From positions 1 to 64,000 of the forward strand of contig JAAYMV010000089.1 in the NCBI GenBank assembly GCA_012521185.1: a DNA stretch of 64,000 bases, written 5' to 3'. The stretch is from Bacillota bacterium (GTDB lineage: Bacteria; Bacillota; Limnochordia; Darwinibacteriales; DTU012). A program made the translations under genes and the position numbers. The notes under the pieces were generated by a model. The model did no database searches and was not told the DNA's origin. It was given only the letters and a program-made list of their open reading frames with translations. Positions 31,339-38,186 of this stretch are shown here, in pieces. Numbering within the stretch: the first letter of the stretch is position 1; each line of letters opens with the position of its first letter.

Positions 31339-31689
31339 TTAATCTTTTGGTTTACTAACTAATGCTATTACGCTGCCAAATACAACAGCAGCAGTGACAC
31401 CTAAACCTGTAATTTCAAATGCTCCAGTAAACAACCCTTCCCATCCTAACCGTTTCACTTCTTGAAGCATACCTGTTGCAATCGCATTACCGAAACCACA
31501 GACAGGAATTAATGCGCCCGCTCCCGCAAATTTTACGAAAGGCTCATAAATACCAAAGCCGCTTAAAATTGCACCTAAAACCGTTAATCCAACAAGAACA
31601 TGTGGTGGCGCTAATTTAGTATGATCCAAAACCAGCTGAGCTAGAGCACAAATTGTACCACCAACAAGAAAGGCAATCAAATACTGCAT
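31339..31689 (-). CDS. spoVAE: Stage V sporulation protein AE (SpoVAE)
   Basis: A 116-aa membrane protein with about four helices and the SpoVAC/AE family segments GGTICALAQ, SGFGIYEPF and AGAGALIPVCGFGN. With SpoVAC and SpoVAD it forms the machinery that moves dipicolinic acid into the spore and releases it in germination. ATG at 31689 with AGGGGG is preferred over the upstream in-frame ATG at 31710, giving the normal family length. Eleven bases after spoVAD. Confidence 0.93.
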   Translation of the reverse strand: MQYLIAFLVGGTICALAQLVLDHTKLAPPHVLVGLTVLGAILSGFGIYEPFVKFAGAGALIPVCGFGNAIATGMLQEVKRLGWEGLFTGAFEITGLGVTAAVVFGSVIALVSKPKD

Positions 31690-31699
31690 GTAATTCCCC

Positions 31700-32707
31700 C
31701 TATACTTCAATTACTATAGCATGAGCAATACCAGGGATAGATTCACCTTGTTGAAAAGTTAAAGCATTTGTCAAAGCACCAGTTGCAATAATCAATACTC
31801 TGCTATATTTACCTTGTACCATCTCTTTGAATACATAACCAATCGTTACCACAGCTGAGCAAGCGCAACCACTACCTCCAGCACCAACTGGCTGTTGTGG
31901 ACTATAAATCATAACTCCAGCGTCTTGGTGCTTCTCTCCTAAACTCAATCCAGCATCTTTTGCTAGAATTGTAAACATTTTTTTACCTTGACGACTTAAA
32001 TCTCCAGTTAGTATTAAATCATAATCACCGACAGTTCTCCCTGTATCCTTCAAATGTTGTGTCAAAGTATCAATGGCAGCTGGTGCCATAGCACTACCCA
32101 TATCATTGACATCTTTAATGCCTAGATCAATTACTTTTCCAAATGTAACACTGGTTATTTTGGGTCCATCACCATCACTAGCTAAAACAACTGCACCAGC
32201 ACCAGTAACTGTATGTTGATTAGTAGGTTTACGTTTAACGTTCAGCTCGATCGGATAACGAAATTGGCGTTCAGCTGTCTGATAATGACTAGATGTTGCA
32301 GATAAAACCTTGTCTGCATAACCGCCATCTATTAAAATTGCACCTAAACCAACACCTTGAGTAAAAGTAGAACAAGCACTATATATTCCCAAAAACGAAG
32401 TATCAATGGAACGAGCACTAAAGTTTGCTGAAATGATTTGGTTTAATAAATCGCCTGCGATATAAAATTGAATATCTTGGACAAAAAGACTTTTCTTGTT
32501 CAACGTTTTATTAATGGTTTGTTCTAAAATCGCCAATTCGGCTTTTTCTGGCGTAGTTTGCCCTAATAAATCATCATCAAGAATATCATCAAAATATTTA
32601 GCTAAGGGGCCTCTGCCCTCCATGGGGCCAACAGTGCAGTGATGAGAAATTATCCTAGGAGGATTACTGAGGATGATTGTTTGTTGTCCGATACGTTTTT
32701 CCGCCAT
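31700..32707 (-). CDS. spoVAD: Stage V sporulation protein AD (SpoVAD)
   Basis: A 335-aa thiolase-fold protein that binds dipicolinic acid in spore formers. Family features: start with IIPNPP-like ILSNPPRI, GVGLGAILID, CACSAVVTIGY and the GIAHAIVIE end. GGAGG lies nine bases before the ATG. Middle gene of spoVAC-spoVAD-spoVAE. Confidence 0.95.
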   Translation of the reverse strand: MAEKRIGQQTIILSNPPRIISHHCTVGPMEGRGPLAKYFDDILDDDLLGQTTPEKAELAILEQTINKTLNKKSLFVQDIQFYIAGDLLNQIISANFSARSIDTSFLGIYSACSTFTQGVGLGAILIDGGYADKVLSATSSHYQTAERQFRYPIELNVKRKPTNQHTVTGAGAVVLASDGDGPKITSVTFGKVIDLGIKDVNDMGSAMAPAAIDTLTQHLKDTGRTVGDYDLILTGDLSRQGKKMFTILAKDAGLSLGEKHQDAGVMIYSPQQPVGAGGSGCACSAVVTIGYVFKEMVQGKYSRVLIIATGALTNALTFQQGESIPGIAHAIVIEV

Positions 32708-32728: not shown

Positions 32729-33187
32729 TTAAAATAAACCTGTCAGTAAAGCTCGAATCAAAGTGACTATAAAACCAGATAGAATGCCAAACACTAGAAC
32801 AGGTCCGGCAATAACAAACATCTTCGAACCCATACCTAAGATAATTCCCTCTCGCCGAAATTCCATGGCCGCAGCAACAACAGTATTGGCAAATCCGGTT
32901 ATTGGAACAGCAGTTCCTGCACCTCCTATCTCTGCTAAATCATCATAAAAACCAAGGCCTGTAGCTACCGCTCCAAGGAAAATCATAGCAGCAAGAGTTG
33001 CCGCGGCTGCTTCCGTCTCAGTTCTTTCTAATTTAGTAAAAATATCAAGCATTAGTTGGCCTAAGACGCAAATTGCTCCTCCTATAAGAAAAGCCCACAT
33101 AACATGTTTCCAAGCATTAGGCTTAGGGCTATGCTCTTTAACCAATTTTTGATATGCTTCCTGTTTTGCTTTTTGTTGGGGATCCAT
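32729..33187 (-). CDS. spoVAC: Stage V sporulation protein AC (SpoVAC)
   Basis: A 152-aa membrane protein with a hydrophilic N-terminus (QQKAKQEAYQKLV) and about four helices. It shares the GGAICVLGQ and GAGTAVPITGFANTV signatures with SpoVAE. SpoVAC is thought to act as a mechanosensitive channel for dipicolinic acid. AGGAGG precedes the ATG; a sigma-G/F-like promoter lies upstream at 33223-33252. SpoVAA, AB and AF are not present, as in many Clostridia. Confidence 0.94.
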   Translation of the reverse strand: MDPQQKAKQEAYQKLVKEHSPKPNAWKHVMWAFLIGGAICVLGQLMLDIFTKLERTETEAAAATLAAMIFLGAVATGLGFYDDLAEIGGAGTAVPITGFANTVVAAAMEFRREGIILGMGSKMFVIAGPVLVFGILSGFIVTLIRALLTGLF

Positions 33188-33222
33188 ATTCTACCTCCTT
33201 TAAACTTGACGATATCATGGTT

Positions 33223-33252
33223 AGTATCAGATAAATAATCAAAAATATACCT
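33223..33252 (-). promoter_or_regulatory. Forespore (sigma-G/F-like) promoter of spoVA
   Basis: Minus strand GGTATA (33252-33247), 17-base spacer, GATACTA (33229-33223), close to the sigma-G consensus (TGnATA and CATnnTA). The start would be about 30 bases before spoVAC, matching known spoVA control. Confidence 0.6.
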
Positions 33253-33264
33253 TTTCAAGTGAAG

Positions 33265-33293
33265 AATAGATTTAGATAGATTGGAAATTATAT
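33265..33293 (+). promoter_or_regulatory. Candidate forespore promoter of the structured RNA
   Basis: GAATA (33265-33269), 17-base spacer, AATTATA (33287-33293): one mismatch from CATnnTA. The predicted start at about 33299 coincides with the closing stem of the putative RNA. Divergent from the spoVA promoter. Confidence 0.4.
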
Positions 33294-33297
33294 TGAT

Positions 33298-33624
33298 AGG
33301 AATCAACTGGTGGCTGAGCTAAGATCATTTTAATGATCGAGGAACTGGTTAGTTATCTAGCCTGACCGAAGGTTATTAAAGGTGCTTAAAAGGCAGGTTA
33401 ATGTCAAAAAGGGGCGTTAATTTGCTTGGATGGTATTCTTAATAGCTGAGCGAAGACTAGAATTCTTGTTCTAGCTATAACAATAAAAAGTTGTGGCGAA
33501 GGATAGGAATGATAGTCGAACAAAGATCACTATCGGTTCTGAGAGTTTTTAATAGGGTATGCAAGCTTTATTAAGGGCTGCAAGGATTGATAGTGGTCGG
33601 CGAGAAGGTCACCCTGATTCCTAA
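33298..33624 (+). ncRNA. Putative structured RNA, about 325 nt, novel
   Basis: The largest gap without genes in the window (33188-33669). Closing stem TAGGAATC (33298-33305) with GATTCCTA (33617-33624). Inside: a hairpin with a 7-bp top (33319-33330 with 33333-33354, 10-base bulge GAGGAACTGG); a 5-bp hairpin 33364-33376; a 15-bp stem 33392-33406 with 33414-33428, loop AAAAAGG, five G-U; a bulged hairpin 33443-33479; a small hairpin 33481-33495; a stem 33507-33517 with 33530-33541; a 15-bp stem 33545-33559 with 33566-33580, six G-U; and a hairpin 33594-33613. The G-U pairs become C-A mismatches on the other strand, so it must be plus-strand RNA. Not recognisable as tmRNA, RNase P, 6S, SRP or a riboswitch I know. 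Confidence 0.65.
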
Positions 33625-33630
33625 ATAAAA

Positions 33631-33656
33631 AGCCTACCATGTTCATGGTAGGCTTG
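33631..33656 (-). terminator. Terminator of the tonB-SLH operon
   Basis: Perfect 12-bp stem (33631-33642 with 33645-33656) followed on the minus strand by TTTATTT. On the plus strand it could also stop the putative RNA, although the U-tract there is weak. Confidence 0.8.
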
Positions 33657-33669
33657 ATTCACCTATATT

Positions 33670-34674
33670 CTAATATACAAAGGCAAAAATCAAACTAATT
33701 GTAGCTGCAACAGTAGCAATTAAGGCAGAACTCTTCGCTGAGCGCAGTTCTTTCTCGGAAATCTCTTTATAAACATCAAATTCTTCACGTAATTCTTTTA
33801 AATCTCTTTCCAACCTTTGTTCCCGAATCAGGCTTGCATTCATTTGGAGACTTATATCATCGGAAATCTTCCTTGCTAAAACAGATAATTCTTCCTCCGA
33901 AACTCCTACTTTACTCTGAATAACGTAAAACTCATCCTGCAAAGCAGCCAATTGGGCAGCATACTCTTGGAAGTTCTGTTCTAAAGCATCAATTTCTCCA
34001 TCAGTTTTCTTCACAGAATCAGCAAGAGTATTTAATTGACGTTGTAAGTTGCTGCCATCAGATTCTAGAGCTGCAAAAACAGCACTTTTTTCTCCGGTCC
34101 AATTCTCCAGTCTAGTAATGTCACTAATCAACTTATTTACTTGGCCTTCCAAATCAGCAATTGATGCTTGAAGAGTTGCATATGAGCTTGCCGTCCCAGA
34201 TGCTTCTGCCATTAAATCCGCTTTTAGCTTGGCTACTTCTTCTTGCAGTTGACTAGTTGTGCTAACCACTCGATTAACTCGATCTTCAGTTGCAATCATC
34301 CGCTTTTGCGTATCGGAAACACTAGTCTCGATCTGTGCCCGATTGGCATACCATTCTACCAACTCAGTGCGAAGTTCGGTAGTTAGCTCTTTTAGTATCT
34401 CAGCATCGCCTTGGTAACCGCTAACTCTTCCTGCTTCAATCTCATCTAAAATCTTAGCTAGCGCACTAGCCAAAGTATACCGATCTACAGATCTATTACC
34501 TTGAAATGTTCCATCCTCATATACGGCTAAATACCCTCTGTTAACTAAGGACACAACCGCTTGGTATGCCCAATGATCAGTCGGAACATCACGAACATTG
34601 GCCATTACTGGCTGAGCAATCATTAATATTAGCAATAAAATCACTGGATACAAAAAGTTTCGTGATAACTTCAT
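33670..34674 (-). CDS. SLH-domain coiled-coil surface protein
   Basis: A 334-aa exported protein. Signal peptide about 1-26. One SLH domain (about 27-80, RDVPTDHWAYQAV then DGTFQGNRSVDRYTLA) should bind cell-wall polymer. A long coiled coil spans about 100-305, and one C-terminal membrane helix about 312-334. The layout recalls SLH-coiled-coil proteins that tether outer membranes in diderm Firmicutes, but a helix replaces their beta-barrel. ATG at 34674 has GGGGAGG; upstream codons lack an RBS. Last gene after exbB-exbD-tonB-cohesin. Confidence 0.82.
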   Translation of the reverse strand: MKLSRNFLYPVILLLILMIAQPVMANVRDVPTDHWAYQAVVSLVNRGYLAVYEDGTFQGNRSVDRYTLASALAKILDEIEAGRVSGYQGDAEILKELTTELRTELVEWYANRAQIETSVSDTQKRMIATEDRVNRVVSTTSQLQEEVAKLKADLMAEASGTASSYATLQASIADLEGQVNKLISDITRLENWTGEKSAVFAALESDGSNLQRQLNTLADSVKKTDGEIDALEQNFQEYAAQLAALQDEFYVIQSKVGVSEEELSVLARKISDDISLQMNASLIREQRLERDLKELREEFDVYKEISEKELRSAKSSALIATVAATISLIFAFVY

Positions 34675-34687
34675 TTTACGTCCTCCC

Positions 34688-36715
34688 CTACGGTCGATCC
34701 ACAATTATATCTCGACTCTGAATTTGCACGTACACCGGCTCACCATAACTATCGTATACCCGAACATTATTTAATCTTAAATCAACACTACCAGGTGCTT
34801 TAGCTCGGAAATGGATAGTTAATAATGTACCGAATGACCATGGTACTGAATTATTCGGACCACGATCGCCATAAATTCCAGTAATGATTCCAGCTTTGTT
34901 GTTTACTGTTGGGTCTTGCCAAGTATAGTTCCTAAACAAATCTGGATTATCATCAACAAATAAAGTACCTCTACTAATATCTAAAGAACGACCAACTATT
35001 TCTACTACCTCTGAATTATAAGCTACATCTAACATTACTTTTTGCAAGTCACGTATATTAGTAGCCCAAATGGAAACAGAGAAATAATCTCCTGGATATA
35101 TTCGGCCATCTCCATATTTTTGTGGCATATCAACCCAGACTTTTGGATCTAAAGGAGGTACGAAGACAAAATTCGGTTCATCTCGCTCTGCAGCGCTAGA
35201 TAGTACTTTGACCGAATAAGGAACCATGCCTGAAACACCATACGGATTAATCGACCAAGTTAATTTAATCTCCTGCCCAGGTTCAAGATCCCCCGGAAAT
35301 TTTTGTGCTACTTCGCCTGGTGCAAGTTTAAACATTGGTGTACTAATTCTAGCCTCTACTCGATGAGCTGGAGCCCCTCCAATATTACGAATTGTAGCTG
35401 TTACTTGGAAGGGTGATGGTGTTAAACGCTCGCCGCTTACCTGCAGTGCTACTGGACCTTCAACTCTTAATTGAACATTAGCCGGTGAAACTATTGTTAT
35501 GTCGCGTTTTACTTGGTTAGGTTCACTATTAATCGAATTAACTTTCACTTCGTATGTCTGAACACCACTAGCACCCCAAGCAGGAATAACCTGCCAACTA
35601 GTTTGAATTGTATCATTTACTTCTAAATTACCTAGATTTCGTACCGGTGAACTATCTAATAACTCTAGTTCAGGTGGAAGATGTAAAGTTGCTGTAACAT
35701 TTCTAGCTTCGCCTTGACCAGTATTTTGAATATAAGCAACGATGGTGAAAGATTCTCGATCACGACTATCAGCTGTAATTTGATTTGGCGAGGTCACACC
35801 AACAGATAAATCACCTGGAGCAATAGTAACACCGCCTAATCCATAGTATGATACATAAGTCCTACTTTCTCCTGGTTTCAAAGGTGTTTGATCCCAAAAC
35901 AAAGCAATGGCACTATCTAATTCAAATTCTCCTGCCCGCATGAAATCACGGCCAGGTTGAAAGTCAAAGTTCCATAAATCATCAGCTAAACTACCCCAAT
36001 TAGTCAAATATACTCGATCCGGAGTAGTTACTTCGCCCCCACTTAAAGTACCTTGAGCCATTACTTGGGGATTAGAAAGTGAATCGAAGGCCAGCCAAAA
36101 CTCTGGCATTTGTGCTTTATAAAAAACAGTATCAGTTTGAAACGCCTGATCATTAACCCTAAAGGGTGCCCCATCGTTTTGACCGAGCATTGTGTCTAAC
36201 ATCAAACGTAATCCAACCAAATGTGCTACATTATCTGTATTATGTAGTTCATACTCAATTTTGGCTGAATCAATCAAACCTGTTGTCGTACTACGGGCAA
36301 AACTTAACTTTTGAGTAACAATCACAGGGCCTAACTGCCACTTGCACACTAAACTCTCATCAATTATCGTTGGACTTTGCAACATTATTCCATACCGTCC
36401 ATTTTTTCCGGCACGACGATTAGTTTCCGCGCCAAAAACCCAGTTTTCATTGCCAATTCTAACCGTGGTATAAGAGGTCCATGGTTCGGTGCCGCCATAA
36501 ATCAAATGTTTATTTTCGTCACCCAGCCGGTCAGGATCGCCACCAGTGGTCCCAACAGAGAAACGACCAGCATTATATGGACGATTATTCAAAATGATTC
36601 TAATATATTCATTCTTTAATTCTAAATAGCCAGCGTTTGATTGAGCATGAACTATATTTGGAACAAAGATGATTAGTAGTAAAAAACTAGCTATTAATCT
36701 CAGTGATTTCGGCAA
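34688..36715 (-). CDS. Secreted protein with CARDB-like repeats and C-terminal cohesin domain
   Basis: A 675-aa exported protein. Signal peptide about 1-24; an N-terminal beta-sandwich (about 30-295) of unknown type; two Ig-like CARDB/DUF11 domains (about 300-410 and 415-515, with ARNVTATLHLP and AHRVEARIST); and a cohesin-like domain (about 525-665, VSIWATNIRDLQKVMLDVAYNSEVVEIVG). Cohesins bind dockerins, but solitary ones occur in surface proteins. Start is TTG at 36715 with AGGAGG eight bases away. It lies between tonB and the SLH gene, so it may belong to an envelope assembly. Function unknown. Confidence 0.7.
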   Translation of the reverse strand: MPKSLRLIASFLLLIIFVPNIVHAQSNAGYLELKNEYIRIILNNRPYNAGRFSVGTTGGDPDRLGDENKHLIYGGTEPWTSYTTVRIGNENWVFGAETNRRAGKNGRYGIMLQSPTIIDESLVCKWQLGPVIVTQKLSFARSTTTGLIDSAKIEYELHNTDNVAHLVGLRLMLDTMLGQNDGAPFRVNDQAFQTDTVFYKAQMPEFWLAFDSLSNPQVMAQGTLSGGEVTTPDRVYLTNWGSLADDLWNFDFQPGRDFMRAGEFELDSAIALFWDQTPLKPGESRTYVSYYGLGGVTIAPGDLSVGVTSPNQITADSRDRESFTIVAYIQNTGQGEARNVTATLHLPPELELLDSSPVRNLGNLEVNDTIQTSWQVIPAWGASGVQTYEVKVNSINSEPNQVKRDITIVSPANVQLRVEGPVALQVSGERLTPSPFQVTATIRNIGGAPAHRVEARISTPMFKLAPGEVAQKFPGDLEPGQEIKLTWSINPYGVSGMVPYSVKVLSSAAERDEPNFVFVPPLDPKVWVDMPQKYGDGRIYPGDYFSVSIWATNIRDLQKVMLDVAYNSEVVEIVGRSLDISRGTLFVDDNPDLFRNYTWQDPTVNNKAGIITGIYGDRGPNNSVPWSFGTLLTIHFRAKAPGSVDLRLNNVRVYDSYGEPVYVQIQSRDIIVDRP

Positions 36716-36739: not shown

Positions 36740-37768
36740 CTACTCAAGCCAACGAGTGTCCCCATAATGCACCTGAGAACCAAAAGAACCATCTGTCGCT
36801 CTAGTAAACTCAATATCTAAAGTGACAACATAATCACGATACATACCTTGGAATTCCCAAAGCAATTTTATAGTTTGGATAGCTTGTAAATCTAATCTTG
36901 GATCACCTGACGATGCTACTAACTCCACATCAATAACTTGTCCGGATCTCGAAACTGTTACATCTAAAGTAACAGTACCTTCAATTCCTTCATGCTCAGC
37001 ATCCTTCGGATAAATAGGATTTCTACCGCCAATATGTGCCGAACGACCACTGGGTGGTGGAGGTGGCGGTGGTGGTGCTACTTCTGCTTCTCCAACACCA
37101 GATTCTTGAGTACCAACATCTAAATCAGACTCTCCTCCAATTAGTTCTTGACCGGTAGAAGAATCTGGGCGCTGTTCTTCAACGACAGGTTGGGCAGGTG
37201 CTGTTGGATCTACTGGTGCTGCAGCAGCTAAGCGCTGGTCTTTCTGTTCTTGCTGTTCTTCAACGACAACTTCACGACCATGTTCACTAGTTAAAAGCTC
37301 TCCAGACTCTTGTACTATTGGACGTTCTATCTCCTGAACTGGTTCTGAAACCTCTGGTGTCGGTGCTGATTCTACAGTTACTTCAACAGGCTCAGGTAAT
37401 GGCTGTGGTTCTAGTTCTGGTTTAGGCTCTGGCGCTGGCTCAGGTCGTGGAATGGCTACCTCAGGTATATCAGCTGGCACTGGTGCTACAGCGGCTAATT
37501 CCTTAGGCGGTTCGCTGGTCGGACGTGGTGGTTCAACTTGTGGAACGGTCGTTACCGAGGAACGATCGGTAACCGGTGATTCTTCCCGCGTATTACTATC
37601 TACAGGTTGATAAACAACCTGAATAACCCCACCTTTTTCAAATCCTGGTGAGTCACTAACTAACAAAGAACTCCATTGAGGATAGGTGAGAAAAAGAATC
37701 GCGTGGATAACAATTGATAGAAAAATAAAGCGACTCATATAAGTTTCTTCGTTATCAAAAAAAGACAT
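36740..37768 (-). CDS. tonB: TonB family protein
   Basis: A 342-aa protein: one N-terminal membrane helix (about 12-32), a very Pro/Glu/Val-rich span (about 60-250) that includes PEPAPEPKPELEP and a run of eight prolines, and a C-terminal TonB domain (about 255-342, NPIYPKDAEHEGIEGTVTLD, then SSGDPRLD). It would carry energy from ExbB-ExbD across the envelope. ATG at 37768 follows AGGTGGGGAG; upstream frame overlaps exbD. TonB requires an outer membrane to be meaningful, a rare case among spore formers. Confidence 0.85.
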   Translation of the reverse strand: MSFFDNEETYMSRFIFLSIVIHAILFLTYPQWSSLLVSDSPGFEKGGVIQVVYQPVDSNTREESPVTDRSSVTTVPQVEPPRPTSEPPKELAAVAPVPADIPEVAIPRPEPAPEPKPELEPQPLPEPVEVTVESAPTPEVSEPVQEIERPIVQESGELLTSEHGREVVVEEQQEQKDQRLAAAAPVDPTAPAQPVVEEQRPDSSTGQELIGGESDLDVGTQESGVGEAEVAPPPPPPPPSGRSAHIGGRNPIYPKDAEHEGIEGTVTLDVTVSRSGQVIDVELVASSGDPRLDLQAIQTIKLLWEFQGMYRDYVVTLDIEFTRATDGSFGSQVHYGDTRWLE

Positions 37769-37784
37769 TTTCTCCCCACCTTTA

Positions 37785-38186
37785 CTAATTTCCAACTTCA
37801 ACCGCTAACCCAAGGTTATGCCCACCTACTGCTTTTATATGATCTAAAGCACTAACAATATGTTCGTAGGAAGCCTGTTTATCCCCCTTAACTATGATAA
37901 ACAAATCAGGTTCACTAACCAATTTGGCCTGCACTAATGCTCTCAACTCTGTACCTGTCACATTTTTACCATCTACATAAAAAGCTCCATTCCGATGAAC
38001 AGCCACTTCGAACTGAGCTGTCTGCGTTGAGCCGCTAACGGCCTTAGGTAGCTCAACCTCAAGACTCATACCAGAATGTTGTAAGGATGAGAAAACAATA
38101 TAAAAAATAAGCATATAGAAAACCACATCAACGAGTGGCAGCAAATCAGGTCTGGGAAGTTTTCTTCTAGAGCGAGTAAATTCCAC
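37785..38186 (-). CDS. exbD: ExbD/TolR biopolymer transport protein
   Basis: A 133-aa ExbD/TolR: basic N-terminus, one membrane helix carrying the conserved Asp (LLPLVDVVFYMLIFY, Asp20), and a periplasmic domain with the family end DLFIIVKGDKQASYEHIVSALD. The Asp carries protons. GTG start overlaps the exbB stop by one base (TAGTG). Pairs with ExbB to power the TonB-like protein. Confidence 0.9.
   Translation of the reverse strand: MEFTRSRRKLPRPDLLPLVDVVFYMLIFYIVFSSLQHSGMSLEVELPKAVSGSTQTAQFEVAVHRNGAFYVDGKNVTGTELRALVQAKLVSEPDLFIIVKGDKQASYEHIVSALDHIKAVGGHNLGLAVEVGN

Follow-up and report, generated by a model that had tools for sequence, protein, structure and literature searches.

A candidate class of large structured noncoding RNA with forespore-type promoters in endospore-forming Bacillota

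What is encoded in the gap at positions 33298-33624, next to spoVAC, on contig JAAYMV010000089.1 (assembly GCA_012521185.1) of a Bacillota bacterium from the class Limnochordia? A preliminary description of the first 64,000 nt of this contig, a stretch referred to here as the window, had noted that the gap lacks an open reading frame (ORF) and had proposed a structured RNA, divergent from spoVA, that matches no known class. We consider it likely that the gap holds the gene of a large structured noncoding RNA of a hitherto undescribed class, which would be transcribed in the forespore and would act in trans. Its probable role is that of a scaffold for protein binding. The structure of this RNA, its covariation, its membership in a class, the restriction of that class to SpoVAD genomes in our sample, and the promoter type are all computed results.

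Structure and covariation of the RNA

On the plus strand, 33298-33624 folds with a minimum free energy of -135.1 kcal/mol, compared with a mean of -77.2 (s.d. 4.5) for dinucleotide-shuffled sequences (z -12.9; none of 100 shuffles equalled it), whereas the minus strand of the same segment reaches a z of only -1.46. The fold comprises 117 base pairs, 30 of which are G-U pairs. It is the combination of frequent G-U pairs and a weak fold of the opposite strand, in the window as well as in several homologues, that fixes the strand of the RNA. The helices named in the preliminary description are all present, i.e. an 8-bp outer closing helix (33298-33305 pairing with 33615-33622) and two 15-bp stems with five (33391-33405/33413-33427) and six (33544-33558/33565-33579) G-U pairs. 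Several further hairpins were found as well, including a 16-bp stem (33525-33540/33583-33598). The ORF list holds no frame of at least 40 amino acids inside the RNA, in agreement with the earlier statement on the gap.

For a comparative analysis, 16 full RNAs of 305-430 nt, including that of the window, were aligned with MAFFT from sequence only, which gave more than 400 columns; one further RNA (L118) was excluded since no position could be assigned to its P1. All 16 share a common plan, in which the closing helix P1 and five arms form a six-way junction. In each of the arms P4, P5 and P6, two helices of about 16 bp, an outer and an inner one, flank a small internal loop with about 3 nt per side; P2 and P3 have one helix each, which is short in the subgroup of the window. 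The six linkers between the helices are near-identical and follow the pattern (G)GAGCNAA (GAGYUAA, GAGCAAA/C, (G/U)GMGCGAA, GAGCCAA, GGGCAAA and GGMGCGAA), and in the larger members P5 and P6 mostly end in GNRA loops. This recurrence of one linker type at every junction, like the many homologues, goes beyond the preliminary description.

The window RNA has the six helices, the six GAGCNAA-type linkers and the covarying pairs that define the class. Its structured core, delimited by fold and covariation, spans 33298-33622 on the plus strand, and the transcript probably starts at about 33298-33300. Alignment and covariation place P1 at 33309-33315 (GGUGGCU), paired with 33607-33613 (GGUCACC). The linker J1/2 (GAGCUAA, 33316-33322), whose GCU is able to pair with GGC at 33599-33601, leads to P2 (33323-33338), a helix of 6 bp in the window and of about 15-16 bp in larger members. 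J2/3 (GAGGAACU, 33339-33346) precedes the likewise 6-bp arm P3 (33347-33362), and J3/4 (UGACCGAA, 33363-33370) precedes P4 (33371-33447), which is built of an outer helix, a small internal loop and, as inner helix, the 15-bp stem with five G-U pairs. J4/5 (GAGCGAA, 33448-33454) is followed by P5 (33455-33517; fold and covariation), and J5/6 (GAACAAA, 33518-33524) by P6 (33525-33598), which comprises the 16-bp stem, a 3/3 internal loop and the 15-bp stem with six G-U pairs. J6/1 (GGCGAGAA, 33599-33606) closes the circle.

The helix columns of P4-P6 are nearly gap-free despite identities of 38-66% between groups. Across the 16 members, 92.6% of the cells pair, versus 33-44% when the partners are slid. 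Covariance analysis, which had been proposed as a check in the preliminary description, revealed changes on both sides in 119 of 150 pairs, and none of 500 shuffles reached the observed value on any of five measures. Since the structure used here had been derived by consensus from the individual folds of the members, we also scored the fold of the window RNA alone on the other 15 sequences, which are at most about 66% identical to it. Here, 87.7% of the cells pair (33-46% with slid partners), and 85% of the cells with a changed 5' base still do so. A chance fold or a functionless inverted-repeat remnant, for which nothing speaks beyond the caution due to any single sequence, is refuted by this covariation; with the strand asymmetry, the compensatory changes over 16 sequences and the conserved linkers, we give it practically no probability. 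The preliminary description had argued against chance from the G-U pairs, which work only on the plus strand. Three linker pairs (J1/2-J6/1, J2/3-J3/4 and J4/5-J5/6) may form clamps of 2-3 bp with moderate covariation support, and these three clamps suggest a pseudo-threefold symmetry of the junction.

Identification of homologues

Homologues were missed by a BLAST-level DNA search of 73 genomes of the class, which gave only weak matches of 16-41 nt. Window-wise folding of spoVAC loci, on the other hand, yielded two strong folds on the same strand and at the same place, and the loci share the 5' motif GGCYGAGYUAAGAYC...GRUCGAGNRACYGGU. A DNA pattern scan retrieved JAAYFS010000006.1 and JAAZLZ010000050.1, which are the same two genomes (G054 and G058, Bacillota metagenome-assembled genomes), as well as a member away from spoVAC, CAJXZV010000017.1. 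A covariance model of the 5' domain (R1) added members across the class and the phylum, and one of the 3' domain (R2) added many more. R2 matches the window RNA, which is part of its seed, with an E value of 1.1e-21.

Several matches were discarded. Those of the DNA pattern in Streptomyces, Gemmatimonadota, Bdellovibrio and viral contigs lack a class-like fold and were taken as due to chance, and R2 found no match in three genomes, one each of Streptomyces, Gemmatimonadota and Bdellovibrio. Two more pattern matches (L066 and L074) fold unlike the class and were also rejected as chance, the genome of the former having a genuine copy elsewhere. At four sites matched by R1 (L086, L087, L088 and L090), the sequence does not adopt the fold of the class. 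In two genomes (G057, locus L034, and G056, locus L035/L067) the contigs end within the RNA or shortly before it; its long inverted repeats are the probable obstacle to assembly. Breaks of this kind will conceal copies in metagenome assemblies.

Promoter and terminator

The upstream regions of 49 members were scored with the promoter model GYWTA-N14-16-GGNNANANTW. The sigma consensus strings used stem from work on B. subtilis. A forespore-type promoter, G(T/C)ATA - 14/15 nt - GGNNANANTA, was observed in these regions. The mean score of the sigma-F/G-type model is highly enriched (z 15.9), and 44 of the 49 regions have at least 9 of 11 matches; the same threshold is reached by 5/49 control windows at -300 to -225 and by 13/49 reverse strands, and no control reaches 10. 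Other sigma models are not enriched in the same regions (sigma-A z 1.8, sigma-E 1.3-1.7, sigma-K -0.6). The promoter mostly ends 5-10 nt before P1. In one family (f9; L111, L112, L120, L121 and relatives) an extra conserved hairpin of about 30 nt lies between promoter and P1, and the distance is 30-39 nt.

In the window, the family-wide enrichment points to a -35 element GAATA at 33264-33268 and a -10 element GGAAATTATA at 33283-33292, both on the plus strand. The -10 element lies 14 nt past the -35 element and 5 nt before the closing stem, a position kept in most homologues. A sigma-70 scan found no promoter at the window RNA; the start at about 33299 proposed in the preliminary description, at the closing stem, is nevertheless right for another sigma factor, as the forespore-type promoter at 33264-33292 fits it. 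From this promoter type we predict with considerable confidence that the RNA is expressed in the forespore. In C. difficile, a conserved G upstream of the -10 element within the sigma-F/G consensus is typical of sigma-F (PMC3789822). An overlap between sigma-F and sigma-G is also described, as is a forespore promoter of the spoVAC operon (PMC7438776).

An intrinsic terminator, or a T run directly after P1, follows most mapped members. In the window, a hairpin at 33630-33655 has the form of a consensus intrinsic terminator on the minus strand and, with a weak T run, is a possible end of the RNA on the plus strand.

Distribution

We searched an evenly spread sample of 399 genomes of the phylum and a sample of 73 genomes of the class. 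R2 matched 171 of the former and 25 of the latter. SpoVAD (PF07451) is present in 337 of the 399 genomes, including all 171 carriers of the RNA; among the 62 genomes that lack SpoVAD, there is no carrier. The resulting table (171/0/166/62) gives a Fisher p of 1.5e-17, a value that is not corrected for phylogeny although the genomes are non-independent. The RNA is thus a phylum-wide class whose members, in the sample, occur only in genomes that encode SpoVAD. Since 166 SpoVAD genomes lack a detectable copy, it is not universally needed for sporulation. The EcsB-bearing genomes among these 166 look like Bacilli.

Genomic context

In the window, the RNA diverges from spoVAC (32729-33187, PF03862), which is followed by spoVAD (31700-32707, PF07451) and a spoVAEB-like gene (31339-31710, PF03862). 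On its other side lies a convergent gene for an SLH/coiled-coil protein (33670-34704). All four genes are on the minus strand, as is a forespore-type promoter directed toward spoVAC (33222-33250; GTATA 33250-33246, N17, GATACTA 33228-33222). This setting invites the idea that the RNA is a cis element of the spoVA locus, regulating spoVAC from a divergent or antisense position or serving as the leader of a neighbouring gene. The same divergent arrangement recurs in G054 and G058 and, with a weaker match, in G004; in five genomes of one family the RNA lies convergently behind spoVAEB, and the promoter of spoVAC in the window is just 14 nt away from that of the RNA. In the class of the window, spoVA genes thus adjoin the RNA on either side. 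Across the phylum, however, the flanking genes have no common theme (a pstB-like ABC gene, a sugar-transport gene, a CRISPR array, hypE-like, spoIVA (in G363), trmK, comA and others), and the downstream gene is usually convergent. Moreover, one genome (G032, locus L043) has the spoVAC and SLH neighbours of the window with only a terminator between them, which is a loss or an insertion at a fixed locus. We therefore regard a cis role as very unlikely. With such varied neighbours and a mostly convergent downstream gene, the RNA appears as a free-standing gene and not as a spoVA leader, and its action in trans can be assumed with high confidence. Of the preliminary description, the divergent position next to spoVAC holds for the window, but the class is not tied to the spoVA locus; its members have their own promoter, usually a terminator, and no common flanking gene.

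Changing neighbours could also indicate a mobile or selfish structured element, such as a miniature inverted-repeat transposable element, the RNA part of a transposon, a retron or a phage element. One genome (G084) carries two near-identical copies 15 kb apart in inverse orientation (C41, 40035 and 55502), and more than one match site was also seen in G145, G104, G374, G415 and G442. Yet the genome of the window has a single copy, no transposase or reverse transcriptase was recognised beside the annotated copies, and the conserved pattern of the 3' domain had no match in 2.9 million viral contigs. Together with the strict link to SpoVAD and the forespore promoters, this makes mobility a most improbable explanation. 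A retron or another RNA linked to a reverse transcriptase was dropped because no such gene was seen beside the RNA.

A few neighbourhoods deserve mention. By our reading of the sequence, germination-type genes lie near the RNA in G103. In G145 and G181 (L127 and L136, respectively) the RNA is near a gene for a ComA-type phosphosulfolactate synthase; sulfolactate is a spore compound known in Bacillus, so this neighbour would be spore-related. In G216 (L113) a CRISPR-like array lies directly beside the RNA from about 8050, probably a coincidence in a single genome. The window also has TonB and ExbD genes (36740-38186); for a spore former, these suggest an outer membrane and hence a diderm member of the Bacillota.

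Comparison with known RNAs

No covariance model of Rfam 15 matched the window at its gathering score, and the plus strand gave no meaningful weak match. The homologues, too, yielded nothing at the gathering score; the weak matches, which concern miRNA and leader models and in many cases lie on the wrong strand, are due to chance. The preliminary description had likewise assigned the RNA to no known class. 6S RNA, the signal recognition particle RNA, RNase P and tmRNA were dropped as they gave no Rfam match, a riboswitch or leader because the downstream genes are convergent, and a CsrA sponge since GGA occurs only in the linkers J3/4 and J6/1.

A close parallel is Bvs196/S547, a 294-nt forespore RNA of the Bacillus hinT-ecsA locus under sigma-F/G, which binds spo0A and sspN-tlp mRNA and has an effect on spore resistance (PMC9147052). 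By this parallel, a null mutant of the new RNA may show reduced heat and UV resistance. The new class shares its promoter type and, as predicted here, its compartment, but Bvs196 was described in Bacilli, whereas the class RNA is 305-430 nt long, has a six-way junction and occurs in other lineages. With filters off, R1 and R2 gave only chance-level scores in the hinT-ecsA regions of six Bacillaceae-like genomes, and no GAGCNAA linkers were found there. These regions (L182-L187; about 240-700 in ecsB orientation) contain 2-4 copies of AAATGAGGTGT on the minus strand within a folded stretch, a purine-rich repeat that resembles a Shine-Dalgarno sequence. The hinT-ecsA RNA is thus another forespore RNA with a repeated motif, apparently unrelated in sequence. 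The common promoter class could mean that the new RNA, too, is a trans-acting antisense RNA that base-pairs with forespore mRNAs in the manner of CsfG or Bvs196. Against this stand the pairing of nearly all its bases, the variability of its loops and the fact that the conserved unpaired positions are short purine linkers within the junction, besides the missing matches in the hinT-ecsA regions and in Rfam. We consider an antisense mechanism unlikely, though less so than a cis role.

CsfG is a 136-nt forespore RNA of the ylbG-ylbH locus, controlled by sigma-F and sigma-G, with conserved CU-rich loops (PMC3574147, which refers to Marchais et al. 2011). It resembles the class in its forespore promoter, predicted for the latter. 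The class RNA differs in being 2-3 times longer, in its purine-rich linkers in place of CU-rich loops, in its lack of an Rfam match and in its location, next to spoVAC and the SLH gene in the window and next to other genes elsewhere. OLE, GOLLD and ROOL (PMC12286853) and the raiA motif/ModT (PMC11706538) are likewise large, ornate and independently transcribed bacterial RNAs of conserved architecture, several of them without a known function, but their Rfam models give no match to the class RNA. We know of no such RNA with this six-way junction, repeated linkers or forespore promoters. Two systematic surveys (PMC11109978, PMC8632094), searched by term, held nothing similar; since only open papers were covered, an earlier description elsewhere is possible.

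Discussion

The following scenario would account for these results. In the forespore, i.e. the future spore, RNA polymerase with sigma-F and/or sigma-G would transcribe the gene from a promoter ending 5 nt before the closing helix. The transcript folds into the six-way junction of P1 and the five arms P2-P6. Its outer and inner helices measure about 16 bp and are separated by the six purine-rich linkers, with possible clamps of 2-3 bp between three linker pairs. On such a rigid scaffold, the repeated linkers, and in larger members the GNRA-tipped arms, may contact a protein or other parts of the RNA, and the RNA would act in trans in spore maturation, dormancy or germination. Among the possible mechanisms we favour a scaffold, as the lengths of the helices and the repeated linkers have been preserved whereas stems and loops vary freely. 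We give a role as scaffold for a protein about even chances.

Several points weigh against this interpretation. Transcription during sporulation is a prediction from sequence, and sigma-F and sigma-G promoters cannot be told apart in this way. The window promoter has only 9 of 11 matches, with an equal-scoring chance match nearby. The scaffold role is argued by analogy, and the clamp pairs are less well supported than the helices, the first being 77% paired. Finally, there are the 166 SpoVAD genomes without a detectable copy and the p value of the co-occurrence without correction for phylogeny.

Since about half of the sampled spore formers and none of the non-spore-formers carry the RNA, and in view of its forespore promoter, the RNA is probably an overlooked part of endospore formation. 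More speculatively, it might serve the dormant spore as a structural part of its own. Its synthesis would then be restricted to the forespore, its repeated linkers would mediate packaging into the spore as a symmetric particle of RNA alone or of RNA and protein, and the class would go back to an ancestor of a large share of the endospore-forming Bacillota. The covariance models and the linkers make the class easy to annotate. As both the cell type in which this large, ornate RNA would act and the time of its action are predicted, its function is directly testable. Few developmental processes of bacteria have been studied as well as sporulation, and nearly all of its known components are proteins. 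If our interpretation is true, the endospore has an RNA component that is missing from this inventory: an RNA of 300-430 nt with strict architecture and forespore promoters, carried by 171 of 337 sampled spore formers but by none of the 62 genomes that lack SpoVAD.
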